The translations under genes were made by a program, and so were the position numbers. Shown one piece after another: positions 28,088-62,483 of a stretch of 64,000 nt of DNA. The stretch lies in NCBI GenBank assembly GCA_017476005.1, contig JAFVEM010000048.1, forward strand, positions 1 to 64,000, in the 5' to 3' direction. The stretch comes from Selenomonadaceae bacterium. GTDB lineage: Bacteria > Bacillota > Negativicutes > Selenomonadales > Selenomonadaceae. Under the pieces are notes generated by a model. That model had not been told where the DNA came from. It made no database searches and worked only from the letters and a program-made list of their open reading frames with translations. The first letter of the stretch is position 1, and every line of letters starts with the position of its first letter.

Positions 28088-28208
28088 GGGGCTTTGCCCC
28101 AAACCCCACAAGAGGCTCTACTTTGTATAAGCGATCTCTAAGGGCTAAATCCCTAAGAGTCTGCTTATGCCTCTTGACTCCGGCAGGGAGCATTGCCCCC
28201 TGCACCCC
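28088..28208 (-). repeat. Dispersed hairpin element B1, upstream of ychF
   Basis: A 121-bp element in the trpS-ychF gap. Minus order: hairpin with GCAGGG/CCCTGC arms; CGGAGTCAAGAGG; a module from TAAGCAGA to TCGCTTA whose hairpin has CTCT/AGAG and AGGG/CCCT arms; CCTCTTG closing the outer stem; then GGGGCAAAGCCCC ending 10 bases before the ychF Shine-Dalgarno site. It matches B3 at 62362-62483 closely outside the central hairpin. Confidence 0.75.
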
Positions 28209-28220
28209 ATTTGGATTTCT

Positions 28221-29267
28221 TTATTCCCAGTAGTTTATGTGCATGGCTTGTCTTACTTCGCTTAGAGTTTGGGCGGCGGCTTCTCGAGCCTCTAGGGAGC
28301 CTTGTTTTAGCATCGCGTAAATTTGCGGTATGTCCTTGGCGTATTCCGCGCGACGCTGGCGAATGGGCGCAAGTTCCTCCTCCAAGACAGCGGCGAGGAA
28401 TTTTTTTACCTTCACGTCCCCCAGACCGCCTCGCTGATAATGGTCTTTGAGTTCGTCGAGACTTACATAGTCGGCGAGATAACGGGCAAAATGCTCCGGA
28501 CGGCAGAAGGCATCCAAATAGGTGAAAACGGTGTTGCCATCCAAGTGTCCGGGGTCGGAGGCACGAATGTGAGTAGGGTCGGTGTACATGGACATGACCT
28601 TTTTTTGCACCGCCTCGGCATCGTCGGACAAATAAATACAATTGCCGAGGGATTTGCTCATTTTCGCCTTGCCGTCGGTGCCGGGCAGACGCAGACAAGA
28701 TTTATTGGCCGCGAGGAGTATGTCCGGCTCCACCAAAACCGGCGTATAAATCTCGTTAAAGCGGCGCACTATCTCTCTGGTTTGTTCGAGCATGGGCTTT
28801 TGATCTTCACCCACGGGAACGGTAGTGGCCTTAAAGGCGGTAATGTCGGCGGCTTGGCTGACGGGATAGCACAGGAAACCGGCCGGAATATTCGTGTCAA
28901 ATTTCTTCTGTTTAATCTCCGCCTTCACGGTGGGATTGCGTTCCAATCTAGCCACCGTCACCAGATTCATGTAGTAAGTAGTAAGCTCAGTTAGCTCCGG
29001 CACTTGAGATTGAATAAAGATGGTGACTTTATCCGGGTCTAGCCCTGCCCCCAAATAATCCAAAGCCACCTCCGTAACGCTTTGCCGCACCTTTTCCGGG
29101 TCAGCGAAATTATCGGTGAGTGCCTGCACATCCGCAATCATAATAAAAATTTGCGCGTATTCGCCGGTAGCTTGCAAGGCTACGCGCTGTCTGAGGGAAC
29201 CGACGTAGTGACCGATATGCAGTTTGCCGCTTGGGCGGTCGCCGGTCAGGATAATTTTTTTTGGCAA
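28221..29267 (-). CDS. trpS: Tryptophan-tRNA ligase
   Basis: A 348-residue class I synthetase. The HIGH motif is HIGHYVG near residue 19 and the KMSKS loop is KAKMSKS near residue 195, with [11 protein letters not shown] at the N-terminus. TTG at 29267 is the best start: GGAGG lies 7 bases before it and the protein then begins [14 protein letters not shown] as in relatives. The frame open to 29312 runs into repeat B4. No T-box leader was seen. Confidence 0.95.
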
Positions 29268-29288
29268 AAGGATTCCTCCTTTTTGGGT

Positions 29289-29359
29289 GGGGCTTTGCCT
29301 CACACCCCACAAGAGGTTCTACCTCTTGACTCCGGCAGGGAGCGTTGCCCCTGCACCCC
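29289..29359 (-). repeat. Dispersed hairpin element B4, short copy upstream of trpS
   Basis: Same outer parts as B1: a GCAGGG/CCCTGC hairpin, CGGAGTCAAGAGG, CCTCTTG, and a GAGGCAAAGCCCC hairpin with one mismatch. The TAAGC...GCTTA module is missing; only TAGAA joins the two outer arms. It ends 8-10 bases before the trpS ribosome site. Confidence 0.7.
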
Positions 29360-60745: not shown

Positions 60746-60845
60746 AATTCGCTTGCCATAACGTCTATGCAGGAACCAGAAAGAAAAAGGCGAATGAAGA
60801 AAAAGCGAACAAAGTAGGAAGAAAAAAACGAAAGGTGGCAAGCCC

Positions 60846-62303
60846 ATGAATTTACGCGTGGTCTCCTCCATGTTGGGGACGCTTACTTTTGCTACCGGGT
60901 GCGCCATGTTTTTTCCCTTGCTCCTTGCCATGTATTACCGGGAAGCGGACGGCGTGGGTACTTTTTTGGTGGGCTGGCTCATTTGCCTGTGCATTTCCTT
61001 TGAATTGAAACGCTACGGCAAATTCAATCAGGATAGACTATCCGTCAGAGAGGGCGTTGCCATTACGGGGCTGGGCTGGATTTTGGTGTCCGCCCTAGGT
61101 ACTTTTCCCTATCTTTTCGGCGGCTACCTAGGACTTTTGGACAGCGCCGTGGAGTCTGTGGCCGGGTTTTCCGGCGTGGGAGCTACGGTGATTGGCGACA
61201 TGGAATCGCTGCCTAGGAGCGTGCTTTTGTGGCGTTCCCTGTCCAACTGGGTGGGGGGACTCGGCATTATCGTCATCTTTATGGCCATTTTGCCTCAACT
61301 GGGACGAGGCGCCATGTATCTCTTTCGCGCCGAAAGCACCGGCCCCACCAGCGAGCGACAACTGCCGCGCATTCGTGACAACGCCAAAGCCCTCTTTATC
61401 ATCTATGTGGTGCTGTCCGCTCTCTGTACGGTGGTTTATTGTCTGTGCGGCCTCGATTGGTTCGCGGCGGTCAATCACGCTCTCACCACCATCGCCACCG
61501 GCGGCTTTTCCACTTACAACACCGGAGTACTGGCGGTGGATAATTATTGGCTGGAGGCTTGGATGACTTTCTTTATGGTGGTATCCGGCGGCAGTTTTGC
61601 CTTGTATGTAACGGCGTGGCGCTCCGGCCGGGAAAAAATTTGGCAAAGCGACGAGTTTCGCGCCTATTTATTTATTATGCTGGCGGCCGCGCTAATGATT
61701 TTAGCGGATTTGCTCGTCGAAACCGACCTCGACATACTGAGCGCTTTTCGCTATGCGTTTTTTCATGTGGCTTCCATTACTTCTACCACCGGTTTTGTCC
61801 TCCACGATTTTGACACTTGGCCGGGATTTTCCAAGGGGCTACTCATTGTACTCATGTTTTTAGGCGGTTGCGCCGGGTCAACCTCCGGGGGACTCAAAAT
61901 ATCTCGCGTTATTCTGCTCGTCAAGATGGTACGCTCCGTTCTGTGGCAAAAACTTTATCCCCTGCGAATGCATGAAGTCTATATGAACGGCCGGCAAGTC
62001 CACCCCGAAATTCTCTTGGGAGTGGCCAGATTTTTCTTTGCCTACATGCTGGTAGATATTGGTTTTGCCTTGTGGCTGATGCTGGGCGGCCTGTCCATGG
62101 TGGATGGGGTAAGCGTCAGCATCGCCACCATGGGCAGCGTCGGCCAAGGATTTGGCATCGCCGGCGCCATGAGTTCCTACGAACTTCTGCCCACCTTCGG
62201 CAAGATAGGGGCTATTTTTGTCATGTTCCTAGGCCGTTTGGAAATTTTCACGGTGCTGGCCTTGTTCCTGCCGGAATTTTGGAGCAAGAAACGGGGCTGG
62301 TAA
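60846..62303 (+). CDS. trkH: TrkH/KtrB-family potassium uptake membrane protein
   Basis: A 485-residue channel-like protein made of four M-P-M repeats. Pore loops are visible in AGFSGVGATVIGD, IATGGFSTYNTG, SITSTTGFVLHDF and MGSVGQGFGIAG. It needs a cytosolic TrkA/KtrA subunit, which is not in the window. AAAGGTGG precedes the ATG. Confidence 0.93.
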   Translation: MNLRVVSSMLGTLTFATGCAMFFPLLLAMYYREADGVGTFLVGWLICLCISFELKRYGKFNQDRLSVREGVAITGLGWILVSALGTFPYLFGGYLGLLDSAVESVAGFSGVGATVIGDMESLPRSVLLWRSLSNWVGGLGIIVIFMAILPQLGRGAMYLFRAESTGPTSERQLPRIRDNAKALFIIYVVLSALCTVVYCLCGLDWFAAVNHALTTIATGGFSTYNTGVLAVDNYWLEAWMTFFMVVSGGSFALYVTAWRSGREKIWQSDEFRAYLFIMLAAALMILADLLVETDLDILSAFRYAFFHVASITSTTGFVLHDFDTWPGFSKGLLIVLMFLGGCAGSTSGGLKISRVILLVKMVRSVLWQKLYPLRMHEVYMNGRQVHPEILLGVARFFFAYMLVDIGFALWLMLGGLSMVDGVSVSIATMGSVGQGFGIAGAMSSYELLPTFGKIGAIFVMFLGRLEIFTVLALFLPEFWSKKRGW

Positions 62304-62361
62304 GGCAGGAATTTGGGGCGAGGCGTCGAAAAAATATACGGTTGGTACATGGAATATATAT

Positions 62362-62483
62362 GGGGTGCAGGGGCTTTAAGTCCCTGCCAGAGTCCAGAGA
62401 CATAAGCAGAGAGCCGCAGGTTTACCTGCGTGCGAATCGCTTATACAAAGTAGCGTCTCTGGTGGGGTTTGGGGCAAAGCCCC
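62362..62483 (+). repeat. Dispersed hairpin element B3 before the sensor gene
   Basis: Same layout as B1, reading plus: GCAGGG/CCCTGC-type hairpin, TAAGCAGA, a different central hairpin (CGCAGG TTTA CCTGCG), ATCGCTTA, then GGGGCAAAGCCCC ending 5 bases before the GAGGAG ribosome site of the next gene. Confidence 0.75.

Follow-up and report, generated by a model that had tools for sequence, protein, structure and literature searches.

Hairpin copies upstream of four genes

The 13-nt hairpin sequence GGGGCAAAGCCCC recurs upstream of four genes in the 64-kb window, that is, the whole stretch of 64,000 nucleotides analysed here, which belongs to the Selenomonadaceae genome G000. Exact copies are located at 28088-28100 (minus strand, ychF), 36388-36400 (minus, prfA) and 62471-62483 (plus, the "sensor" gene), and a copy with one mismatch at 29289-29301 (minus, trpS). 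NCBIfam matches confirmed the identities of ychF, trpS and prfA, and the fourth gene gave only weak matches, to periplasmic-binding-type families. The chance expectation for the 13-mer in the window is 0.28, and none of 100 dinucleotide shuffles reached 5 occurrences. The four copies are thus present where an earlier note on this DNA had placed them, above the shuffle expectation. They are also, as that note described, in the sense of the downstream genes and close upstream of their starts, at 22, 21, 20 and 17 nt from the start codon. A fifth match, with one mismatch (7182-7194), lies within a coding ORF and was set aside as chance-like.

At three of the four sites the hairpin forms the 3' end of a longer multi-hairpin element, and at prfA it stands alone, which agrees with the earlier description. 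The features are as follows:

28183-28208, minus: ychF site, module a, tag GGGGT plus stem-loop GCAGGGGGCAATGCTCCCTGC, read from the sequence
28109-28182, minus: ychF site, middle module, CGGAGT plus CAAGAGGC...GCCTCTTG, loop split by a nested insert, read from the sequence and from the intact sibling module CAAGAGGCAGAGCCTCTTG
28119-28167, minus: ychF site, nested insert within the middle module, TAAGCAG-hairpin-TCGCTTA plus tail TACAAAGTA
28086-28108, minus: ychF site, terminal module TGGGGTTTGGGGCAAAGCCCCAA, containing the 13-mer
29335-29359, minus: trpS site, module a, GGGGT plus GCAGGGGCAACGCTCCCTGC
29310-29334, minus: trpS site, middle module, CGGAGT plus CAAGAGGTAGAACCTCTTG
29289-29309, minus: trpS site, terminal module TGGGGTGTGAGGCAAAGCCCC, differing from the 13-mer at one position
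36380-36400, minus: prfA site, solitary terminal hairpin plus short flank, GGGGCAAAGCCCCATTTTCAA; the same gap lacks the hairpin in relatives
62362-62387, plus: sensor-gene site, module a, GGGGT plus GCAGGGGCTTTAAGTCCCTGC
62388-62462, plus: sensor-gene site, middle module, CAGAGT plus CCAGAGAC...GTCTCTGG, split by a nested insert
62403-62452, plus: sensor-gene site, nested insert, TAAGCAG-hairpin-TCGCTTA plus tail TACAAAGTA
62463-62485, plus: sensor-gene site, terminal module TGGGGTTTGGGGCAAAGCCCCAA

A further module family with the same architecture and a different end, GGATTCC plus CCAAAGGG..CCCTTTGG plus CCGCCGGAGGC, occurs in both orientations at 17865-17928 and 20282-20455. Apart from the repeat, a terminator-like hairpin with a T run lies between the L20 gene and trpS (29373-29391, minus), and 78-nt repeats are found at 47608-47940 within a 1796-aa ORF (46333-51723), possibly encoding a repetitive surface protein.

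Modular organization and folding

Each unit of the repeat comprises one to four modules in tandem, and each module consists of a G-rich tag, YGGRGT, directly abutting its own stem-loop, the last module being that given above as terminal. Examples are GGGGT-GCAGGGG..CCCCTGC, GGAGT-CCAGAGGG..CCCTTTGG and GGGT-CAAGGGG..CCCCTTG, with TGGGGT-TTGGGGCAAAGCCCCAA in last position; the tags found were GGGGT, GGAGT and CGGGT. Modules are joined head to tail, stem to tag, one nucleotide apart (stem-T-tag-stem). DNA folding returned every module as a hairpin of its own, and z was about -5 where a unit had two or three modules. The arms are symmetric, and the G content of the 5' arm therefore cannot orient the hairpins.

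When copies were anchored on the tag, 102 of 112 had a base following it that pairs with its partner; 2000 permutations gave a mean of 62.4 and a maximum of 74. The complement was present for 25 of the 27 non-T bases in this position. Since the copies share descent, this covariation shows that the palindrome has been kept, but not how. Intergenic DNA amounting to 32 kb contained 221 perfect stems of at least 7 bp, compared with 11 in shuffles, in a sample that is enriched because it was fetched around 13-mer copies.

The order of a G run, a short loop, a second G run, a loop and a C run, which as read from the sequence recurs in most modules, raises the question of whether tag and stem (GGGG-TTT-GGGGC-AAA-GCCCC) might fold into an intrastrand triplex of the purine motif, or a pair of modules into a G-quadruplex, and be kept for that reason. 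However, the tracts are only 4 nt long, below the 6-15 nt searched by Holder 2015 (PMC4666352), the tags vary to GGAGT, and the same study did not find a stable triplex in vivo. We regard retention as non-B DNA as very improbable.

Copy number, orientation and position in the genome

In G000 (2.71 Mb, 76 contigs, 94% complete) the 13-mer has 104 exact copies (48 plus, 56 minus) and 172 copies when one mismatch is allowed, compared with 3 for the reversed 13-mer used as a control; the density in the window (3 exact copies in 64 kb) equals the genome average. Gene context was taken from stretches fetched around 97 listed places, with genes called by a home-made codon-usage scorer. Among the 98 exact copies with context, 36 run along both co-directional flanking genes and 33 against them (binomial p 0.81); the others lie between divergent (8) or convergent (6) genes or within called ORFs (15). 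One occurrence, inside a biotin-ligase-like ORF of L061, was judged by eye to be native coding sequence met by chance and was rejected.

From the four copies of the window, the earlier note had derived a fixed polarity relative to the downstream gene. This claim is refuted by the counts of 36 with and 33 against: the genome-wide check, when run, gave no strand preference, the outcome that the note itself had named as refuting, and the uniform polarity in the window is a small-sample effect. What is constant is the relation to gene edges, because the 3' end of the hairpin adjoins one in either orientation. Where the gene on the 3' side faces away from the hairpin, its start codon is a median of 29 nt off; where it faces the hairpin (antisense copies), its stop codon is a median of 12 nt off; and on the 5' side the neighbouring gene is a median of 112-150 nt away.

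Co-directional gaps carry 28 single '+' units, 22 single '-' units, 16 outward '-+' pairs and 1 inward '+-' pair, so that outward pairs exceed inward pairs 16:1 (p 3e-4). Outward pairs may be commoner still, since the sequences suggest a unit of another flavour beside many '-' singles on the start side. Orientation is linked to start distance, which is short for '+' units and long for '-' units (Fisher p 4e-7).

These counts bear on two explanations in which the hairpin acts on RNA. According to the first, which the earlier note had named first, it is a regulatory 5'-UTR element that the genes share and that affects how the downstream message is translated or degraded. Same-sense copies do end about 20-30 nt before starts, and the RNA of the ychF site has a strong predicted fold (z -4.4). 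Nevertheless, 33 of the 69 co-directional copies are antisense and located at stops, copies also occur within ORFs, no Rfam match was found in the window, and prfA of relatives does without the hairpin. A shared 5'-UTR element is thus highly improbable, and the data lend no support to a gene-specific 5'-UTR role.

The second explanation holds that the units are intrinsic terminators or 3'-end mRNA stabilizers retained past stop codons. In the sense of the gene, most units start no more than about 20 nt past the stop of the upstream gene, and inverted repeats are enriched past stops across bacteria (PMC13155455), which we count in its favour. Yet the stem is not followed by a T run on either strand, a scan of the ychF and trpS sites found no terminator in the elements but only the separate one at 29373-29391, and units are found in operon gaps and in ORFs. 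We consider this explanation very unlikely, although mRNA stabilization may be a side effect of the units.

Gain of the hairpin in a gap and in coding sequences

Comparison of the prfA gap with that of a relative, L234, revealed an empty site: the relative has TAATTTTTGAGGTGAAATAAGTG, whereas G000 has TAATTTTT and GAGGTGAAAATTTTG on either side of GGGGCAAAGCCCCATTTTCAA (full stretch TAATTTTTGGGGCAAAGCCCCATTTTCAAGAGGTGAAAATTTTG). The hairpin was also absent from the other relatives with a readable prfA start; the relatives used for comparison belong to other genera than G000. The gene upstream of prfA, for which no NCBIfam match was obtained, is presumably DUF1385-like. Given the empty site in the relative, the prfA hairpin was gained in a gap of 17 nt, and the length of that gap before insertion (about 17 nt) fixed the distance between hairpin and ribosome site.

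In-frame units are present inside an HMA_2 protein, a sulfatase-domain protein and a family-41 glycosyltransferase. For the sulfatase-domain gene, the one in-frame case compared with relatives, these have a shorter linker without the unit. The in-frame cases are at L002 1252-1938 (minus), L004 28-2133 (minus) and L032 3971-5563 (plus), and the units add about 25 residues (NKNLLPGQGAASPLWGLGQSPN or similar). The empty prfA site and the in-frame copies together show that the element inserts; no consistent target-site duplication was seen. The suggestion of the earlier note that the hairpin is the footprint of an element inserting near translation starts therefore holds as to insertion, and its second half is better restated: insertions are tolerated mainly at gene edges.

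Alternatively, the units could be internal parts of an IS630-type miniature element (MITE) with ends like TATAGYAAACGNAATAAATAAT. A match to CGTTTGCTATA occurs in 6 of 100 units, always exactly 11 nt from the hairpin on its 3' side, and G000 contains IS630-like (DDE_3) remnants with TATAGTAAACGAAAAAAATAATAG nearby. However, the motif shows no overall enrichment (21 versus 16 in one shuffle), is missing from most units, and in no unit are both ends intact: terminal repeats of the IS630 type were seen as a degenerate, one-sided match in a few units. A full-length MITE bounded by TATAGYAAACG, of which no intact pair turned up, and an IS630-type origin of the units are accordingly unlikely; the remnants and the fixed-offset flank resembling TATAGCAAACG on a few units serve as a lead only. 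The transposase fragments, IS630-like (DDE_3), are on L312, L313 and L314, with TATAGTAAACG-type sequences nearby.

A second element nested within the modules

The inserts that split middle modules belong to a second element of 50 nt, TAAGCAG-stem-loop-TCGCTTA plus a 9-10 nt tail, for example TGCGTTAGCA or TACAAAGTA. Its pattern has 44 matches in G000, at least 2 of them chance-like by sequence, and 29 of 30 fetched matches lie within hairpin modules, either in loops or at the stem-tag junction. Sibling modules without the insert show the insertion to be seamless, and the inserts provide exact before and after sequences, which ordinary REPs rarely offer. The several different target contexts suggest that the nested element inserted repeatedly; spread of modules that were already interrupted is a possible alternative origin of nested copies. 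In eight other genomes the nested element is almost missing, G049 having one similar copy. The window holds a third insert of this kind (20450-20499, plus), which splits a CCGCCG/GAGGC module.

Distribution among genomes

In a sample of 61 genomes of the family, the terminal module was found in 3, namely G000 (102 copies) and two genomes of another genus (15 and 59 copies), with 0 in the other 58; in the phylum sample it was found in 14 of 399 genomes. The same modules occur in the Selenomonadaceae MAGs L118 and L163, and trains of the same syntax built from other stems in the two other family members and in the distant G371. Across public genomes, the exact 22-mer GGGGTTTGGGGCAAAGCCCCAA is present in at least 112 stretches, including Clostridia, Brachyspira, Bacteroidota, Rhodobacteraceae, Magnetococcales and others. 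Among 108 of the stretches listed, a perfect stem of at least 6 bp ends exactly one nucleotide before GGGG in 63%, compared with 1-2% at the control offsets 0 and -1; offsets above 1 lie inside the same stem and are not independent controls. The cross-phylum 22-mer may reflect shared origin, horizontal spread or convergence. The viral collection contained one contig with the 22-mer (L197 404-479, two copies 54 bases apart), and neither the 13-mer, its reverse complement nor GGGGTTTGGGGC occurred in the literature searched.

A Y1 transposase (HUH, RAYT-type; PF01797) gave no match in the repeat-rich genomes G000, G018, G044 and G371, two of which are drafts of 85-89% completeness, in a search that was positive in E. 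coli and other controls. An association of the repeat with RAYT was rejected for these genomes on this result.

Discussion

Based on the observed copy number, module syntax, covariation, orientation counts, prfA gain, coding insertions and nested inserts, the hairpin is probably (at a probability of about 0.78) one component of a REPIN/BIME-like mobile palindromic repeat, present in many copies, which persists at the edges of genes. The 13-mer would supply the stem-loop for the final module of this repeat, which is small, modular and non-coding, with units occurring singly or as outward-facing inverted pairs, as do REP singlets and REPINs. Such units would multiply through the genome by transposition-like copying, and purifying selection against broken genes would set their position, the survivors being those that leave stop codons and Shine-Dalgarno sites intact. 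Any effect on mRNA would be secondary. The spacing to starts would be constant because operon gaps measure about 15-20 nt, so that a surviving unit falls a few nt past a stop codon, with the next start about 20-30 nt further on; the hairpin is close to ribosome sites because intergenic gaps are tiny, not through regulation of the four genes. A regulatory story of four genes thus turns into a genome-wide repeat family that sets the intergenic layout in G000 and relatives.

Several known systems resemble this repeat. BIMEs are likewise mosaics of several palindromic modules in alternating orientation, but the modules here stand head to tail within a unit, one nucleotide apart. The terminal repeats associated with TIRYTs (GGGGWSAS; PMC3733652, PMC6006769) share a GGGG-led motif in REP-type dimeric repeats; they flank Y1 transposases, of which none was found here, and the present tags (GGGGTGCA, GGGGTCAA, GGGGTTTG) are not exact fits to GGGGWSAS. 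Rickettsia palindromic elements (as cited in PMC3733652), likened by description, are also palindromic repeats placed in frame within protein genes, whereas the repeat here is mainly intergenic. The TM-ECO/PIT intrastrand triplex motifs (Holder 2015, PMC4666352) are, similarly, G/C-rich repeated palindromes with an extra G tract, intergenic and patchy among relatives, but their strand order is C-G-G rather than G-G-C and the tracts here are much shorter.

The closest parallel is with REPs and REPINs (Bertels and Rainey 2011, PMC3116915; Di Nocera 2013, PMC3733652), which resemble the repeat in copy number, in having tags next to stems and inverted doublets, and in lying close to the 3' ends of upstream ORFs. 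Like them, the repeat is a short palindrome with about 100 or more copies, mostly extragenic, and forms inverted doublets of one fixed orientation (16:1 in co-directional gaps). It differs in that several different palindromes are chained per unit, that the tag is YGGRGT instead of GTAG or CGTC, and that a search of four repeat-rich genomes yielded no cognate Y1 transposase. Since tag and transposase are both defining, the repeat works like a REPIN family without being classified as such. Tentatively, and with more doubt than confidence, it might represent a third class of tagged palindromic repeat, one that spans phyla and is characterized by a GGGGT/GGAGT tag, trains of hairpins joined by one nucleotide and non-RAYT spread, and parasitized at loops and junctions by a seamless second hairpin element. 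With the 22-nt module and its joining rule recurring in unrelated phyla, and without the enzyme known to move REPs, RAYT-free copying of a REPIN-like repeat becomes a testable question.
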